From Niveibacterium sp. SC-1 (GTDB lineage Bacteria; Pseudomonadota; Gammaproteobacteria; Burkholderiales; Rhodocyclaceae), in NCBI RefSeq assembly GCF_038235435.1, contig NZ_CP151275.1:4526001-4590000 (forward strand): DNA of 64,000 nucleotides, read 5' to 3'. Positions 47,875 through 59,613 of the stretch are shown here, in pieces. The notes beneath the pieces were generated by a model. The model worked only from the letters and a program-made list of their open reading frames with translations, had not been told where the DNA came from and did not search any database. A program made the translations under genes and the position numbers. The number at the start of each line of letters is the position of its first letter. The first letter of the stretch is position 1.

Positions 47875-48144
47875 ATGAGTACCCGAGACGTTCCCGAGCA
47901 GGATGCCGAGGCCAGTCCGAGCATGATGGCGGCTGCAACACTTTTCATGATGAGCCGTTACGCGGAGAATCCGTCTGCGGATTCCGCCGAGTCGGTCATA
48001 CTGCACCTAGAGTGCGTGGCGGAGGACGAGCGTTGCGACCCACTGATGCGTGAGGTCTGCGCGGCGCTCGCACAGCGATGGCAGATCCATGCTGCACAGC
48101 CCTGCCTCGCGCACGGCGCCCCCGGCGCTTCGCTTCAGCACTGA
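47875..48144 (+). CDS. Small hypothetical protein, paralogue set member 2
   Basis: This 89-residue protein reads MMAAATLFMMSRYAENPSAD, then LHLECVAEDERCD and CAALAQRWQIHAA. It is clearly related to member 1 (identical LECVAE and closely similar flanking pattern) and, more weakly, to member 3. An AAGGA ribosome site lies six bases before the ATG. It precedes rpsD2 by 23 bases. I do not know its role. Confidence 0.72.
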   Translation: MSTRDVPEQDAEASPSMMAAATLFMMSRYAENPSADSAESVILHLECVAEDERCDPLMREVCAALAQRWQIHAAQPCLAHGAPGASLQH

Positions 48145-48167
48145 TTTCTTACGGAGTAATTCAAGCA

Positions 48168-48782
48168 ATGGCTCGTTATATCGGCCCGCGCGTGCGCATT
48201 CTGCGTGCCCTGGGCACCCCCCTCCCCGGCCTGACCCGCAAGGAAGTCGGCAACCGCACGGAACGCCCCGGCCAGCACGGCGCCAAGCCGAACACCCGCA
48301 AGTCGGGCTTCGGCCTGCAGCTGATCGAGAAGCAGAAGCTGCGCTACCACTACGGCGTGAACGAAACCCAGCTGCGCAACCTGGTGAAGGAAGCCAAGGG
48401 CGGCAAGCAGCCGACCGGCGAGAAGCTCGTCGAGCTGCTCGAGCGTCGCATCGACAATATGGTGTTCCGCGCCGGTTTCGCCCCGAGCATCCCCTGCGCG
48501 CGCCAGCTGATCCGCCATGGCCACATCCAGCTCAACGGCCGCCGCGTGACCATCCCTTCGCAGCGTCTGCGCGTGGGCGACACGCTGAGCCTGGGCCCCA
48601 AGGCGCAGAAGGTGCCGGCCGTGGTCGAGTCGCTGCAGCAGCCTGCGCTGGAGCGTCCGGAATGGATCGCCTTCGACGAAACGGCCAAGGCCGCTCGCCT
48701 CTCGCACCTTCCGGGCGTGGATGCGCAGCCCTTCCCGCTCGACACGCAGAAGATCGTCGAGTACTACGCGCAGCGCGTGTAA
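48168..48782 (+). CDS. rpsD: Ribosomal protein S4 paralogue, cyanobacterial/plastid-like
   Basis: This 204-residue protein is an S4 homologue: MARYIGPRVRILRALGTPLPGLTRK, RPGQHGAK, LIEKQKLRYHYGV and the RNA-binding S4 domain LLERRIDNMVFRAGFAPSIPCARQLIRHGHIQLNGRRVTIPS, ending KIVEYYAQRV. The opening and the VEYY ending resemble cyanobacterial and plastid S4 more than the usual betaproteobacterial S4 with its KSARR block. No zinc-finger cysteines are present. It is outside any ribosomal operon, so it is very probably a second, specialised copy. The main rpsD should lie in the alpha operon elsewhere. Confidence 0.9.
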   Translation: MARYIGPRVRILRALGTPLPGLTRKEVGNRTERPGQHGAKPNTRKSGFGLQLIEKQKLRYHYGVNETQLRNLVKEAKGGKQPTGEKLVELLERRIDNMVFRAGFAPSIPCARQLIRHGHIQLNGRRVTIPSQRLRVGDTLSLGPKAQKVPAVVESLQQPALERPEWIAFDETAKAARLSHLPGVDAQPFPLDTQKIVEYYAQRV

Positions 48783-50712: not shown

Positions 50713-51002
50713 GATCGTTCTCCCCGAATCTCGCGGTTTGTCATGCGCCCAGCCTAGGCCCGCACCCGACCGACGTCCGTCGGCCCGGTGCGCCAAATAC
50801 CGCAGGACGGGAACAGCCGCCCGGGTCGGACCACGCCTACACGCCTGTCGCAAGTGCGCGAGCGACCGGGCACGCACCAAACTGGAACGAGAAAACCCCC
50901 AGGAACGCAATAAACCCCCTGCCGTGGCCGATTTCACGCCGGGAACGGTCTTTGCATACAAAACCCGCATCCGCATCAAAAGCCTTTGCTGGGAGAAACA
51001 CG

Positions 51003-51965
51003 ATGGCTGCCTCATGTTCCTGGGACTCGATGGACGTGCATCTGCTGCGCGTCCTCTTCACGCTGCTGACTGAATGCTCGGTCTCCAACGCAGCCCGGCG
51101 ACTCAACCAGTCCCAGCCCGCCGTCAGCACCGCGTTGCGCCGTCTGCGCGAGATCACCGGGGACCAGCTGCTGGTGCGCTCACGCTCCGGCATGACGCCC
51201 ACCGAGCGCGGCGCGGCCCTGCTCGAACCGGTCAAGAACGCGCTGGCCCAGATCGAGGCGATCGCCGTGCGCCAGGTGCGCTTCGAGGCGGCCAAGTCGC
51301 GCCGGGTATTCAATATCGCCACGCCCGACTACCTCAACGCCGACATGCTCGGCCGCATCGTCGGCCGCCTGCGCACGGCCGCGCCCCAGTCCCAGGTGGT
51401 CTTCCACTCCCTCGGGCCGGACAGCGACTTCACCGCCGCGCTGGAGTCGGGCGAGCTGGACGTGGTGATCGGCAACTGGCCGCAGCCGCCGGAACATCTG
51501 CGCATCACCCCGCTCTTCGAGGACGAGGTGATCTGTCTGATGCGCCGCGAGCATCCGCTCGCCGGGCGCCCGCTCTCGGTGGACAGCTACCTCGCCGCGG
51601 AACACCTGGTGCCCACGCCCTATTCGGTGGGCCGGCGCGGCGTGATCGACCTGCATCTGGCGCGCGAACGGCTCAAGCGCAACGTGGTGGCCTCGGTGCC
51701 CTACTTCCACCTGGTGCCGCAGATGCTGCTGCAGACGGACATGATCTTCACCGGCCCGCGCGCCTTCGCCGAGCAGTGCATGCGCACCTCGCCGCTGGTG
51801 ACGGTCGATGTACCGCTCGCTTTCCCACCGATGAGCTTCTATCTTTTGTGGCATGACCGCAGCCACTACGCCGACGAATGCCGCTGGTTCCGCGAGCAGA
51901 TCGTCAGTGTTGCCCGCAACAGCGAGGCCGGCCGGAACAGGACGTCCACCCGCTTCGCGGCTTGA
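51003..51965 (+). CDS. LysR-type transcriptional regulator
   Basis: This 320-residue protein has the LTTR helix-turn-helix (SVSNAARRLNQSQPAVSTALRRLREITGDQLLVR, about residues 25-60) and a C-terminal effector domain with RVFNIATPDYLNADMLGRIV and DVVIGNWP. It resembles regulators of aromatic or nitrogen metabolism such as the NodD/LeuO-like group (SRSGMTPTERG). The ATG at 51003 has a GGGAG ribosome site; MDVHLLR at 51030 is an alternative start. No clear target lies beside it: the next gene downstream is the PUD-GGDEF gene on the same strand. Confidence 0.88.
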   Translation: MAASCSWDSMDVHLLRVLFTLLTECSVSNAARRLNQSQPAVSTALRRLREITGDQLLVRSRSGMTPTERGAALLEPVKNALAQIEAIAVRQVRFEAAKSRRVFNIATPDYLNADMLGRIVGRLRTAAPQSQVVFHSLGPDSDFTAALESGELDVVIGNWPQPPEHLRITPLFEDEVICLMRREHPLAGRPLSVDSYLAAEHLVPTPYSVGRRGVIDLHLARERLKRNVVASVPYFHLVPQMLLQTDMIFTGPRAFAEQCMRTSPLVTVDVPLAFPPMSFYLLWHDRSHYADECRWFREQIVSVARNSEAGRNRTSTRFAA

Positions 51966-52096: not shown

Positions 52097-53998
52097 ATGC
52101 ATTTGCACCCCGAGAACGGTCAGTCCTCGATCCTGCGCGCGTTCTGGCTCGTCCTGATCGCGCTGAGCCTGTTTGGCTTCGCCGCGCAGGCGAATGCCGA
52201 AGCCCCGGCGGACACCGTACGGCTGCACTTTCACCGCGACAACAACGACTACACCGGCTGGGGCCTGCACATTTGGGGGACCAATCTCGCCCTCAAGCGC
52301 GACGTCACCTGGGAGCATCCGCTCGAACCCGCCGGGGTCGACCCCTACGGCGTCTATTTCGACGTACCGATCAAGCCCGAGACGCGCAGTTTCGGCTTCA
52401 TCCTGCATCGCGGCGAAAACAAGAGCACCGCGCAGGACCTCGAGATCGACATCGGCAAGCACGGCCGCGAGGTCTGGCTGCTCGAAAACAGCACCACGGT
52501 CTTCACCGCGCCCCCGCCCACCAGCCAGGACTTCCAGGTCGGGCTGGAGGCGGCCCGCACCGAACAGGCGAGCATGCGCCTGCGCTGGCTCGGCGTCGCC
52601 GGCGGCGCACTCCTGCTGATCGTCGCCTGGGCAGTGTCGCAGCGACGCCTGGTCAGCACCCGCCAGCAGCTGGCGACGCAGGTTTCGCTGCTGATGCAGA
52701 CCCAGCAGGCGCTGAGCGAACAGGGTGACCGCATCCAGCCCGGCGCCGACGACGAGCTCACCGGCCTGCCGACGCGCGGCGGCATGCAGAAGGCGCTCGA
52801 CCTCGCGCTGGCCCGCGCGCGCCGTCAGCAGAGCAAGGTCGCGGTGATGTTCGTGGACCTCGATGGCTTCAAGGCCGTGAATGACACCGCCGGCCACGAT
52901 GCGGGTGACGCGGTGCTGCGCACCCTGGCCCAGCGCTTTCGCACCTGCCTGCGCGAAAGCGACACCGTGGCGCGGGTGGGCGGCGACGAGTTCATCGTCG
53001 TGCTGGAAAACCTGCGTGATCCCCTCGACGCCCTGACGATCGCCCGCAACCTGCTCGAAGCGGCGCGCACGCCAGTGGACTCCGCCAGCGGCCCCTGCCA
53101 GGTCGGCGCGAGCATCGGCATCACCGTCTATCCGGGTGACGGCGAGGACGGCCCTGCGCTACTCAAGAAGGCCGACTCCGCGATGTATCAGGCCAAGCGC
53201 GCGGGCAAGAACGACTGTTTCTTTGCCGACCCCGCACTGCAGGCGCTGGCCGAAGCCCGCATCAGGCTGGAGCGGGAGCTGCGGCAGGCGCTGCAGAACG
53301 GCAGCCTGCGCTTTGACTTTGCCCCCGTGCTCGCCTTGCCCGACGGATCGATGCTGGGCGCCGAACTGCTGCCGCGCTGGAACGGCGAGCCGGGCGGCAG
53401 CGCCGTGCCCATCGGGGAAGACGAACGCAATGACTTCGCCTCTGCCCTGAACCGGGCAGCCCTCAGCCACGCGCTCAACCAGACCCTGAGCGAAGCGCAG
53501 GCCCGCCGCGGGCGCGAGACGCAGCTGCGCTTTGCCGTGCGCCTGAACGGCGACGCCGGTGCGGCCCTGGCCCTGGCCAAGGAGCTGCTGGCCGGCCACG
53601 CCGGCGCGCGCATGATCCGCCTGGAGTTGCCGATCTCGGCCCTGGAGCCGCGGCGCCAGCTCGCCGACGCCATCGCGGTGCTACGTGGCTACGGCGTCAC
53701 GATCGGCGTCGGTCGCCTCGGCCTGCAGGAGATCGGCCTCACGCAGCTGGTGGCCACGCCCTTCGACGATCTGGTGCTGGATATCCCGGCACTCGCGGCG
53801 GCGCCCGGGAGCACGGCCCAATCGCTGGCCCAGTGTCTGGTCACGCTGGGTCGCACGCGCGGCTTCCGGGTCGTGGCCAGCGGGGTCGACACGCCCGCGC
53901 TGCGCGACTGGGCCGCCCGTGTCGGTTGCGACTCCGCCCAGGGCGAAGCCATGCACGCGGCGGTGAGCGCCGACAACCTGGCAAAGCTGCCGGCCTGA
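52097..53998 (+). CDS. Diguanylate cyclase with periplasmic PUD (CBM41-like) sensor and degenerate EAL domain
   Basis: This 633-residue protein has a signal/anchor segment (residues 15-34) and a periplasmic domain (40-138) resembling pullulanase-associated PUD/CBM41 modules: VRLHFHRDNNDYTGWGLHIWG, DPYGVYFDVPI, FGFILHRGENK and REVWLLENSTTVFT. A second membrane helix (163-180) and a linker lead to a GGDEF domain (218-385) with GGDEF at 295-299 and an I-site RESD at 286-289. The C-terminal EAL-like domain (390-630) lacks the key metal residues: AELLPRW replaces EALLRW and VGRLGLQEIGL replaces the DDFGTGYSSL block. It probably makes c-di-GMP in response to an alpha-glucan or related saccharide (inference). 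Confidence 0.88.
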   Translation: MHLHPENGQSSILRAFWLVLIALSLFGFAAQANAEAPADTVRLHFHRDNNDYTGWGLHIWGTNLALKRDVTWEHPLEPAGVDPYGVYFDVPIKPETRSFGFILHRGENKSTAQDLEIDIGKHGREVWLLENSTTVFTAPPPTSQDFQVGLEAARTEQASMRLRWLGVAGGALLLIVAWAVSQRRLVSTRQQLATQVSLLMQTQQALSEQGDRIQPGADDELTGLPTRGGMQKALDLALARARRQQSKVAVMFVDLDGFKAVNDTAGHDAGDAVLRTLAQRFRTCLRESDTVARVGGDEFIVVLENLRDPLDALTIARNLLEAARTPVDSASGPCQVGASIGITVYPGDGEDGPALLKKADSAMYQAKRAGKNDCFFADPALQALAEARIRLERELRQALQNGSLRFDFAPVLALPDGSMLGAELLPRWNGEPGGSAVPIGEDERNDFASALNRAALSHALNQTLSEAQARRGRETQLRFAVRLNGDAGAALALAKELLAGHAGARMIRLELPISALEPRRQLADAIAVLRGYGVTIGVGRLGLQEIGLTQLVATPFDDLVLDIPALAAAPGSTAQSLAQCLVTLGRTRGFRVVASGVDTPALRDWAARVGCDSAQGEAMHAAVSADNLAKLPA

Positions 53999-54043: not shown

Positions 54044-54565
54044 TCAGGGCGCGACGCGATTCTCCAGGCGCAGCGCTGCGATCCGTTCGATCTGCCGCAG
54101 CGCCTCGGCGACTTCGGCCTCCACGCTATTGCCCAGGCGCGCCTCCAGCGCCGCCAGGATCGCGGCGCGATCACGCCCGCGCACCGCCACCACGAAGGGA
54201 ATGCCAAAGCGCGCGCGATAGGCCGCATTGAGTTCCTGCAGGCGCGCAAATTCCGCCGGCGTGCAGCTGTCGAGTCCCGCGCCGCGCTGCTCGCTGGTGG
54301 ACTCCGCCGTCAGCTCGCCACGCACCGCCGCCTTGCCCGCCAGCTCGGGATGCGCCGCAATCAGCGCGTGCTGCTCCGCCGCCGTCGCCGCCCACATCTC
54401 CGCCACCAGTGCCGCCAGCAAGCCGGCCCGGTCGGCATATGGCCGCTGTGCCCAGGCTCGCCGGGCAATCCAGGGCGAATGCTCGAAGATGCCCTCCAGT
54501 GCAGCCACGAATGCGGCCTGGTCCATGGCCGAGAGCTGGGCGACATCAAACTGGGATTCGCTCAT
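54044..54565 (-). CDS. uraD: OHCU decarboxylase UraD
   Basis: This 173-residue protein decarboxylates 2-oxo-4-hydroxy-4-carboxy-5-ureidoimidazoline to allantoin. Family blocks are LEGIFEHSPWIARRAW near residue 23, HPELAGKAAVRGELTAES near 65, SEQRGAGLDSC near 84 and RFGIPFVVAVRGRDR near 113. The ATG at 54565 gives MSESQFDVAQ. It is divergent from uraH. Confidence 0.93.
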   Translation of the reverse strand: MSESQFDVAQLSAMDQAAFVAALEGIFEHSPWIARRAWAQRPYADRAGLLAALVAEMWAATAAEQHALIAAHPELAGKAAVRGELTAESTSEQRGAGLDSCTPAEFARLQELNAAYRARFGIPFVVAVRGRDRAAILAALEARLGNSVEAEVAEALRQIERIAALRLENRVAP

Positions 54566-54789
54566 GGGTCGCGTCGTAGAAAGTGATGCATAAAGCCTAT
54601 GCAGGCCTTGGAAGCGGCACAAGCACGGCGCCGTGATACAGAAATTCGCGCGCACCTTATGAGCGCGGCATTTACCTCGCGCGGGCCTCGCTGCAGCGGG
54701 TTCCGCGCGGTGCCGGCCCACGTCACCGCGGAGGGCCTTATTCGGGCGCCAGCATGCGGCCTATCCACCGGGCCGGGGCGGGGCCTTCC

Positions 54790-54795
54790 TATAAT
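54790..54795 (+). promoter_or_regulatory. Candidate -10 of uraH-puuD
   Basis: A consensus TATAAT within TTCCTATAATCGG lies 44 bases before the uraH start. The -35 region is weak. Confidence 0.45.
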
Positions 54796-54839
54796 CGGCC
54801 GATCTGCACGCCCGCCGTGCGCCTCGGGATCCGCCTGCC

Positions 54840-55181
54840 ATGGGACGCCTCACCACACATGTTCTCGACACCGCGCGCGGCTGCCCCGCGGCCGGGCTCG
54901 CCTTCGAGCTGCGCCGCGACGGCGTCGTGCTCAAGAGCGGCCACACCAACGCTGACGGCCGTGTCGACACACCCTTGCTCGAAGGCGCGGCGCTCCAGCC
55001 CGGCGTCTATGAGCTCGATTTCGCCTGTGCCGACTACTTCCGCAACGCCGGCCTCGCGCTGAGCGAACCACCCTTCCTGGATGTCGTCACCCTGCGCTTC
55101 GGCGTGGCCGACGCGAGCGCGCACTACCACGTGCCGCTACTCGTCTCGCCCTGGAGCTACTCCACCTACCGGGGCAGTTGA
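54840..55181 (+). CDS. uraH: 5-hydroxyisourate hydrolase
   Basis: This 113-residue transthyretin-like enzyme hydrolyses 5-hydroxyisourate. It has the N-terminal LTTHVLDTARGCPAAGL, the substrate-binding Arg/His residues and the diagnostic C-terminus YSTYRGS. The end overlaps the puuD start as TGATG, which suggests translational coupling. Confidence 0.95.
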   Translation: MGRLTTHVLDTARGCPAAGLAFELRRDGVVLKSGHTNADGRVDTPLLEGAALQPGVYELDFACADYFRNAGLALSEPPFLDVVTLRFGVADASAHYHVPLLVSPWSYSTYRGS

Positions 55182-56386
55182 TGGACGCCGCCTACCTGCT
55201 CGAAGTCTTCACCCTGCTGCTGCGCTGGGCGCATGTGATCGTGGCGATCGCCTGGATCGGCGCCTCCTTCTACTTCGTCTGGCTCGACAACAGCCTGCGT
55301 CCGCCTGCCGATCCCGCCCTGAAGGAAAAAGGCGTCTCCGGTGAGCTCTGGGCGGTGCACGGCGGCGGCTTCTACAACCCGCAGAAATACATGGTCGCGC
55401 CCTCGCACCTGCCGGCCGATCTGCACTGGTTCAAGTGGGAGTCCTACACCACCTGGATCACCGGCTTCCTGCTCATCAGCTCGCTCTACTACCTGCAGGC
55501 CGGCAGCTACATGGTCGACGCCAGCAAGATGGCGCTGCAGCCGCGCCAGGCCGTGGGCGTGGGCATCACCGCGCTGGTCCTGGGCTGGCTGGTCTATGAC
55601 GGCCTCTGCCGCCTGCTGATCAAGCGCAGCCAGGTCCAGCTCGGCGTCATCTACTACTTCTTCGTGCTCGCCATGGCCTACGCGCTGACCCAGATGATCT
55701 CGGGCCGCGCCGCCTTCCTGCACATCGGCGCGATGATCGCCACCACCATGAGCGCGAATGTCTTCTTCTGGATCATCCCCGGCCAGAAGCGCGTGGTCGC
55801 CGCCATGCAGCGCGGCGCAGCACCGGACCCCATGGACGGCCTGCGCGCCAAGCAACGCAGCGTGCACAACAACTACCTCACCCTGCCGGTCGTGTTCTGC
55901 ATGATCAGCAACCACTTCGGCTTCACCTACCAGCATCCGCACGCCTGGGCGATCCTCGGCCTGATCCTGCTCGGCGCAGTGCTCATCCGCCACTGGTTCA
56001 ACCTGCGCCACAAAGGCCATGCGCCCCTGGTGTGGCCAGTGCTCGGCTGCCTGCTGCTCATCGCCGCCTTCATCTGGACCGCACCCAGCCGCCCCGACAC
56101 GCCGGCGCCCGGCAGCGCCGCGGCGGCCACCCCGACGGTCACGGTCGCCGACATCCGCCCCATCATCGACGCCCGCTGCGCCGCCTGCCACGGCGCCCAT
56201 CCCACCCTGATGCCAACACCGGCCGGCGGTCTCGTGTTCGACAGCGACGAACACCTGCGCCAACTCGCCCCGCGCATCCACCAGCAAGCCGTGGTGCAGA
56301 AGGCCATGCCGTTGGGGAACATTACGAAGATCACGGACGCGGAACGGGCGAAGCTGGCGGCGTGGTTCGACGGTGGGGCTCAGTGA
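55181..56386 (+). CDS. puuD: Membrane urate oxidase PuuD with cytochrome c domain
   Basis: This 401-residue protein has eight or nine membrane helices in the N-terminal part (DUF989-type, starting LLRWAHVIVAIAWIGASFYFVWLDN) and a C-terminal cytochrome c domain with heme site CAACHG near residue 335 and a distal Met in KAMPLGN. PuuD oxidises urate to 5-hydroxyisourate and passes electrons to the respiratory chain. It is coupled to uraH. A TTG three bases upstream could also start it. Confidence 0.94.
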   Translation: MDAAYLLEVFTLLLRWAHVIVAIAWIGASFYFVWLDNSLRPPADPALKEKGVSGELWAVHGGGFYNPQKYMVAPSHLPADLHWFKWESYTTWITGFLLISSLYYLQAGSYMVDASKMALQPRQAVGVGITALVLGWLVYDGLCRLLIKRSQVQLGVIYYFFVLAMAYALTQMISGRAAFLHIGAMIATTMSANVFFWIIPGQKRVVAAMQRGAAPDPMDGLRAKQRSVHNNYLTLPVVFCMISNHFGFTYQHPHAWAILGLILLGAVLIRHWFNLRHKGHAPLVWPVLGCLLLIAAFIWTAPSRPDTPAPGSAAAATPTVTVADIRPIIDARCAACHGAHPTLMPTPAGGLVFDSDEHLRQLAPRIHQQAVVQKAMPLGNITKITDAERAKLAAWFDGGAQ

Positions 56387-58494: not shown

Positions 58495-59613
58495 ATGATC
58501 CGCCACACTCCCGCTCTTCCGGCCATCCAGCCGTTTTCCTTGTCCACACCTGTGATGTTCAAACCTGCGATGTCCACGCCTGCGATGTTCAAACCCGCGC
58601 TGCTGCTTGCCCTGCTGACCTGCCTGAGCCTGCCGCTCCAGGCTGCCGAATCGTCCGCCGAACGCCTGGATGCCGCACTCGCACAACCGGTGCGCGAGGA
58701 CGCCGCAGCCGCCCGGAAAGATGGCGTCTTCTTCGGCATCTTCCGCGCCGGGGATCTCACGGACCTCGCCGAGGACGCGCCGGCCGACCTGCGCTTCAAG
58801 CCGGCGTCGGTCATGTGGTTCACCCGCTTCGGCGGCGGCAACTTCCCGGAATCGGAAATCGCCTTCCTCTGGTCCAAGGGCTATGTGGCCCAGGTGACCT
58901 GGGAGCCGATGGACTGGAAGGGCGAGGGCGTTTCGCTGCAGGCCGTGATCGACGGCAAGTGGGACGAGTATCTCGACACCTACGCCAAGGCAGCCGCCAA
59001 ACAGAACATCCCCTTCATGCTGCGCTGGGGTCATGAGTTCAACGGCGACTGGTACCCCTGGTCGATCACCAAGAACGGCAACAACGCCAAGCTCTACGCC
59101 GCCGCCTTCCGCCATGTGGTGGATCGTTTCCGCAAGGCTGGTGCGCACAAGGTGCAGTTCGTCTGGTGCTACAACAACGAGGGCGTGCCCAAGAGCATCG
59201 ATCCCTTCGACGCCTGGCCGGGCGACGAGTATGTCGACTGGATCGGCATCGACGGCTACAACTGGGGCCGCTCGCAGTCCTGGAGCAAGTGGGCGAGCTT
59301 CGAAGAGACCTTCGGCCCCGCCTATGCGCTGGCGGCCAAGTACGCGCCCGGCAAGCCCATCGTGATCGGCGAGATGGCCTCCAGTGAAGTCGGTGGCGAC
59401 AAGGCCGCCTGGCTCAAGGACATGTTCGCCGTGCTGCCGCGCTACCCCGCGATCCGCGCGCTCACCTGGTTCGACCTGAACAAGGAAACCAACTGGTCGC
59501 TCAGCTCCAGCGACGAGGTCTACCTCGCCTTCATCAAGGGCCTGGAACAGCCTTACTGGCGTGGCAATGCCGAGGCGCTGATCGCGGTGGCCGCGAAGCC
59601 CCCGAAGCCCTGA
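58495..59613 (+). CDS. Secreted GH26-like glycoside hydrolase
   Basis: This 372-residue protein matches glycoside hydrolase family 26. The acid/base region is RWGHEFNGDWYPW near residue 178 and the nucleophile is in VIGEMASSEVGG near 292; WIGIDGYNWG lies between. GH26 enzymes are mannanases, xylanases or beta-1,3-xylanases; the exact substrate is unknown. The N-terminus is unusual: MFKPAMSTPAMFKPA is a duplicated segment before the hydrophobic LLLALLTCLSLPLQA signal peptide. The ATG at 58495 has an AAGG ribosome site; ATGs at 58555, 58570 and 58585 also exist. Confidence 0.87.
   Translation: MIRHTPALPAIQPFSLSTPVMFKPAMSTPAMFKPALLLALLTCLSLPLQAAESSAERLDAALAQPVREDAAAARKDGVFFGIFRAGDLTDLAEDAPADLRFKPASVMWFTRFGGGNFPESEIAFLWSKGYVAQVTWEPMDWKGEGVSLQAVIDGKWDEYLDTYAKAAAKQNIPFMLRWGHEFNGDWYPWSITKNGNNAKLYAAAFRHVVDRFRKAGAHKVQFVWCYNNEGVPKSIDPFDAWPGDEYVDWIGIDGYNWGRSQSWSKWASFEETFGPAYALAAKYAPGKPIVIGEMASSEVGGDKAAWLKDMFAVLPRYPAIRALTWFDLNKETNWSLSSSDEVYLAFIKGLEQPYWRGNAEALIAVAAKPPKP

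Follow-up and report, generated by a model that had tools for sequence, protein, structure and literature searches.

Within a 64,000-nucleotide stretch of the genome of Niveibacterium sp. SC-1 (contig NZ_CP151275.1, positions 4,526,001 to 4,590,000; hereafter, the window), we found a gene for a protein that joins a PUD/CBM41 module, otherwise typical of pullulanases, to a GGDEF diguanylate cyclase domain and a degenerate EAL domain. This architecture, the residue set of the PUD, the intact cyclase motifs and the loss of EAL residues can be read directly in the sequence. We predict that the protein sits in the inner membrane as a diguanylate cyclase with the PUD/CBM41 module as its input domain, and that periplasmic malto-oligosaccharides gate it, a function that we consider evenly balanced between right and wrong. 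If true, it would couple the breakdown of extracellular starch to the decision between sessile and motile life, and starch sugars in the periplasm may thus sway the cell's choice to settle or to swim. It would also offer a modular alpha-glucan-to-c-di-GMP sensor.

Domain layout and predicted topology

A sequence-only reading of the gene had placed a PUD/CBM41 module at residues 40–138. The Pfam profile matched at nearly the same residues (Table 1), covering positions 1–97 of its 97 with a score of 85.6 bits, far over the cut-off of 25. At E values up to 10, Pfam matched neither a GH13 catalytic domain nor a DISM domain in the window protein. The GGDEF domain was intact and equipped with an I-site, as had also been read from the sequence: the motif RVGGDEF is present, the RxxD of the I-site (R286, D289) lies five residues upstream, and the metal- and nucleotide-binding residues D254, K259, N262 and D263 are all in place.

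Table 1. Features of the PUD-GGDEF-EAL gene, in window positions
Feature	Position	Strand	Basis
PUD-GGDEF-EAL protein, whole coding sequence including stop	52097..53998	+	633 aa ORF
Predicted signal peptide, residues 1-34	52097..52198	+	Hydropathy and comparison of relatives
PUD/CBM41 domain, residues 40-137	52214..52507	+	Pfam PF03714, E=4.6e-24; solved CBM41 chains
Membrane helix, ~residues 162-182	52580..52642	+	Hydropathy
Stalk joining membrane helix to GGDEF, residues 183-216	52643..52744	+	Sequence, alignment; helical coil inferred
GGDEF diguanylate cyclase domain, residues 219-372	52751..53212	+	Pfam PF00990, E=1.3e-48
I-site RESD and GGDEF motif, residues 286-299	52952..52993	+	Motif position, alignment
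Degenerate EAL domain, residues 393-618	53273..53950	+	Pfam PF00563, E=6.1e-27; 3/8 catalytic positions left

By hydropathy, the protein has two hydrophobic stretches, picked up by 19-residue windows whose first residues are 10–16 and 162–164. The first runs into the sequence ...AQANAEAP right ahead of the PUD, with an A-N-A end, and in 23 aligned relatives the hydrophobic run likewise stops shortly ahead of the PUD, mostly at an A-x-A-like end (as judged by eye). Such ends make a signal peptide followed by one membrane helix likelier than two helices. The first stretch is thus more likely a cleaved signal peptide, which would leave a single membrane helix at about residues 162–182, and the earlier reading, with a membrane helix on either side of the PUD, is probably wrong. 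We infer that the PUD faces the periplasm and that its ligand is therefore likelier to be a periplasmic malto-oligosaccharide than the whole external polymer.

A LysR-type regulator (window 50952–51965, + strand) ends 131 bases upstream of the receptor gene on the same strand; its best NCBIfam model was BsrA, with a score far under the cut-off of that model. Further upstream, a gene for 30S ribosomal protein S4 (48078–48782, + strand; NF003717, E=2e-62) sits among unrelated genes. Directly downstream are purine breakdown genes (54044–56386), encoding an OHCU decarboxylase and a membrane-type urate oxidase, and a secreted GH26-like protein with a weak match (E=2.3e-11) is encoded at 58495–59613 (+ strand).

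Conservation and descent of the family

When the PUD part was searched by sequence against solved structures, 10 distinct chains came up at E≤1; nine carry names of pullulanase-type enzymes, and 2j43 is named SPYDX. A family-profile search returned the identical ten chains, and the fold is one assigned by sequence profiles. The matches include the Thermotoga CBM41 module 2j71–2j73 (2j71 at 2.1e-6) and the tandem modules 2j43/2j44, with 2j44 as the best match (1.6e-11). In the alignment with 2j71, W60, K109 and D114 of the window protein fall on W, K and D, and H58 stands where 2j71 has its second stacked Trp. We take CBM41 positions of the W60/K109/D114 type to be ligand contacts, some of which may be structural. 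Residue-level ligand contacts of CBM41 modules were not found in the open literature, including the accessible parts of PMC2582482 and PMC6243121.

Across 26 sequences of the PUD-GGDEF-EAL family, H44, R47, W55, W60, W72, H104, K109, D114 and W127 are invariant; at position 58, 23 sequences have H and three have Y. All 26 thus retain the conserved tryptophans (W55, W60, W72 and W127) that the sequence-only reading had expected for glucan stacking. Profile searches supplied 18 pullulanase-type PUD rows for comparison: H occupies position 58 in 12 of them and Y in six, and the residues found at the other positions are W at 55 (17/18), W at 60 (17/18), K at 109 (15/18) and D at 114 (11/18). In the receptor PUDs the residue set is kept no less strictly than in these 18 rows, which are labelled pullulanase-type by frame length and absence of a GGDEF motif, not by Pfam row by row. 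The 18 rows are the fairer control because the scan pattern GWGL[HY][VI]WG introduced some bias into the alternative set, 48 pullulanase-type rows thinned from 192.

The synthetic half of the output is similarly well kept: the I-site residues R286/D289 together with D297, E298 and F299 are invariant in all 26 sequences, and the GG pair is retained in 25. The window protein has kept three of the eight EAL catalytic positions, in line with the loss noted beforehand, and the family ranges from 8/8 in P0013 and P0021 (2/26) to 0–6 in the other 23, counts that come from aligning each sequence with the intact P0013 in a divergent region where the alignment is uncertain. Mean pairwise identity (253 pairs of 23 sequences) amounts to 52% for the PUD, 56% for the GGDEF domain and 26% each for the EAL domain and for the linker with the membrane helix; for the stalk it is 34% (231 pairs). 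Similar identities of PUD and GGDEF, far above that of EAL, would be expected if selection keeps input and synthesis. P0013 is the mirror image, with SADEF and an intact EAL, and in P0021 both domains are intact, a state that is probably ancestral. Judging from these two, related receptors may differ in output, with opposite or double activities.

The family is small. A protein search with residues 1–200 yielded 12 relatives besides the query, all 12 with PUD, GGDEF and EAL. With P0013 as query we recovered P0013 itself and P0005 with this layout, one PUD-only protein and two amylase/pullulanase proteins; with L033, 14 proteins were retrieved, four of them PUD-GGDEF-EAL (P0017, P0021 and P0024 as new members, and P0009 again) and ten pullulanase-/glycosidase-type. 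In a scan of genome contigs, the best 80 of 127 confirmed loci comprised six with GGDEF, 71 with loose GH13 motif matches and three with neither, namely a PUD-coil-helix stub and two frames broken by contig ends. The stub (L036:771–1538, + strand), in a MAG labelled Janthinobacterium lividum, consists of a PUD, a coil and a C-terminal membrane helix and has no GGDEF.

Carriers include Albitalea terrae, Niveibacterium sp. 24ML and MAGs labelled Uliginosibacterium, Corallincola, Gammaproteobacteria and Spirochaetales. The architecture occurs in 5 of 395 genomes of the window's taxonomic family, all belonging to the window's genus (five of its seven genomes), and, besides the window genome, in two of 399 genomes at the order level. 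The genus-mate G005 gave no match to the receptor at E≤1e-10, and G004 retains, between argJ and rpe, a decayed PUD-GGDEF remnant (L117) with frameshifts and a large part missing.

Phylogenetic analysis of the GGDEF domain placed 22 of 23 members in one clade (support 96/96), with P0013 outside on a long branch. In the PUD tree the four genus-mates stand apart from the rest, and a single clade is not rejected (p-AU 0.458; among the 26 rows tested are the stub L036, L091 as a cut fragment and the remnant from G004). A second, independent PUD-GGDEF fusion in the genus-mates, at which the PUD tree hints, is unsupported given this p-AU value and the GGDEF clade, and one old PUD-GGDEF-EAL fusion appears to be the simplest reading. 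In both trees the window copy clusters with P0002 and Albitalea-type proteins, apart from the genus-mates, and its identity is 82% to P0002 and 30–32% to the genus-mates. The receptor gene lies between argJ and rpe in G001, G002, G003 and G006; in the window genome these two genes are close together, with no receptor-type gene between them. Given this grouping and the empty site, the window copy is probably either a separate acquisition or a different paralogue.

Starch genes and the signal that the module may sense

The window genome encodes two pullulanases with tandem PUDs, Pullulanase_N2, CBM48 and Pullul_strch_C, one of them adjoining a putative type II secretion set (secretin by Pfam, the rest by eye), and has four LamB matches. 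It also encodes a stand-alone PUD protein of 150 aa and secreted type (L172:6787–7236, − strand), which adjoins lamB and has an alpha-amylase nearby. Its relative in G001 (L189:10741–11193, + strand; 66% identity) lies in the gene order edd-eda-lamB-malK-malE-malF-malG-PUD-alpha-amylase. Eight of the 14 genomes searched for LamB have such a protein. According to the coordinates, it follows a lamB gene at a distance of up to about 7 kb, downstream and on the same strand, in G000, G001, G002, G003, G006, G102 and G503; in G004 the protein is present and LamB was not found. Similar stand-alone PUD proteins occur in several further genomes of the order, and they may possibly be soluble periplasmic accessories that bind maltodextrin. 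Since the stand-alone PUD lies near lamB, a predicted periplasmic PUD accompanies maltodextrin uptake in these bacteria, a matter separate from the receptor's own ligand.

Pullulanases also accompany the receptor. The domain Pullul_strch_C scored above the cut-off in ten of 11 carriers (G000, G001, G002, G003, G006, G460, G503, G781, G782 and G783) and just below it in G784 (28.6 versus 29.7 bits), against a background of 8/395 genomes in the taxonomic family (5 carriers) and 32/399 in the order (3 carriers). Fisher tests of carrier status versus this domain gave p=4.7e-4 for the genomes of the order and 0.011 for its genera (E≤0.001), both values being generous owing to shared ancestry; a family-level p of 7e-10 was set aside because its five carriers are a single genus. 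The reverse link is loose, with 29 of the 32 order genomes that have Pullul_strch_C lacking the receptor, and G004 has kept the pullulanase domain and the receptor only as its remnant. LamB was found in nine of the 11 carriers and not found in G460 and G783, and no PUD other than that of the receptor was found in G783 and G784; absences in the latter two genomes weigh little because they are MAGs (2.2 and 2.6 Mb). Glucan sensing thus finds partial, indirect support in the pullulanase domain of 10/11 carriers and in the stand-alone PUD of the maltodextrin cluster.

These observations suggest the following scheme. Malto-oligosaccharides freed outside the cell by its own pullulanases and amylases would be admitted to the periplasm by LamB-type porins and bound by the PUD module. 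Binding would alter how two receptor chains pair or twist, acting via the single membrane helix and the stalk, and the two GGDEF domains would then make c-di-GMP, with the I-site acting as a product brake. The EAL domain would no longer cleave c-di-GMP and might serve at most as a scaffold. That the ligand raises c-di-GMP and does not lower it is roughly a coin toss. More broadly, we suggest, with slightly less than even confidence, that a module of starch enzymes was turned into a transmembrane receptor that converts malto-oligosaccharides released by the bacterium's own secreted pullulanases into a c-di-GMP signal. The family would have started from a PUD-GGDEF-EAL protein and for the most part have lost its phosphodiesterase, leaving a signal of synthesis only, and longer chains could bridge two receptors and activate the cyclase, which would make the protein a reader of chain length.

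The PUD might instead sense another periplasmic glycan or a protein partner and not free alpha-glucan, the cyclase output being unchanged; candidates are a peptidoglycan fragment, the cell's own exopolysaccharide, the stand-alone PUD protein or MalE. Such a ligand, which we judge unlikely though a serious contender, would agree with the location of the receptor gene outside any starch locus: no starch genes were found among the Pfam-scanned neighbours (seven for L037, four for L032, four for L033, five for L035 and ten in the window; L166, L167 and L038 have neighbours in common with L037 by protein similarity, and the scan leaves out L168 of G460 and L169 of G503). It would also agree with the several carriers without LamB or without a pullulanase domain above the cut-off. 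However, the residues at the CBM41 positions are the pullulanase PUD set, without variation across the 26 sequences, and the pullulanase domain is strongly enriched among carriers. That the PUD is only a piece for dimerisation or adhesion, for example an envelope-glucan tether, on a constitutive, ungated cyclase seems improbable to us. Carbohydrate-binding modules elsewhere are mostly anchors, and the stub L036 couples a PUD to a membrane helix without any GGDEF; yet the PUD is joined to an intact GGDEF in 25/26 sequences, both domains being similarly conserved, and if the topology is right it would lie below the outer membrane, where it could not anchor the cell to outside polymer.

The flow of information might also be reversed, with the EAL domain binding c-di-GMP and signalling outward to the PUD as in LapD. 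The NCBIfam LapD model does cover residues 183–542, at 68 bits, a small fraction of its 1020-bit cut-off, and 14 of the 26 sequences have Glu at the EAL position. But the EAL domain is poorly conserved and barely recognisable in the genus-mates, whereas GGDEF and I-site are intact in 25/26, and we consider this arrangement very improbable. We retain a cyclase gated by periplasmic malto-oligosaccharides as the working model. For most diguanylate cyclases, to our knowledge, it is not known what signal they respond to; here the ligand class of the PUD is known from its enzyme relatives, and one specific cue is therefore directly testable.

Comparison with known systems

The sequence-only reading knew of no characterised protein with this layout and allowed for uncharacterised relatives. 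A search by title and abstract, with subscription papers outside its coverage, found no published account of a PUD/CBM41-GGDEF architecture, and an uncharacterised family does exist. Automatic PUD+GGDEF+EAL domain calls are already present in the protein database, and the architecture is therefore unstudied rather than unseen. Transmembrane sensory cyclases are a known kind of protein; it is the PUD as an input domain that lacks a described precedent in signalling in the searched literature.

The closest precedents involve other sensors. NicD of Pseudomonas aeruginosa (7TMR-DISMED2 / 7TM / GGDEF) also unites, in one chain, a periplasmic domain tied to direct carbohydrate binding and an active diguanylate cyclase, and carbohydrate binding is reported to accompany increased cyclase activity (PMC8544897). 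It differs in having DISMED2, an unrelated sensor family, instead of PUD, in its seven membrane helices versus one, and in lacking both an EAL domain and a link to alpha-glucan. A second such protein, RgsP of Sinorhizobium meliloti (7TMR-DISMED2 / 7TM / PAS / GGDEF / EAL), has a periplasmic domain of a predicted carbohydrate-binding class fused to GGDEF and EAL (PMC6107284). Its output is reversed, with an active phosphodiesterase and a degenerate GGDQF, and its sensor, 7TM region and PAS also set it apart (PMC6107284). Unlike the 7TMR-DISM receptors with their seven helices, the window protein has only two hydrophobic stretches.

The input domain itself is known from enzymes. The PUD/CBM41 pullulanases (2j71–2j73, 2j43, 2j44, 2wan, 2fgz) have the PUD domain and its conserved residues in common with the receptor; theirs are on a secreted hydrolase, whereas the receptor has no GH13 and carries a membrane helix and GGDEF-EAL. 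A GH126-GGDEF protein of Bacillus velezensis (QHK13041.1) likewise combines, in one chain, a putative amylolytic-family domain with GGDEF (PMC7479077). There, however, the domain is of catalytic type and not a binding module, and the GGDEF motif is degenerate (SAERF; same source), whereas the PUD receptor described here pairs a binding module with an intact cyclase motif.
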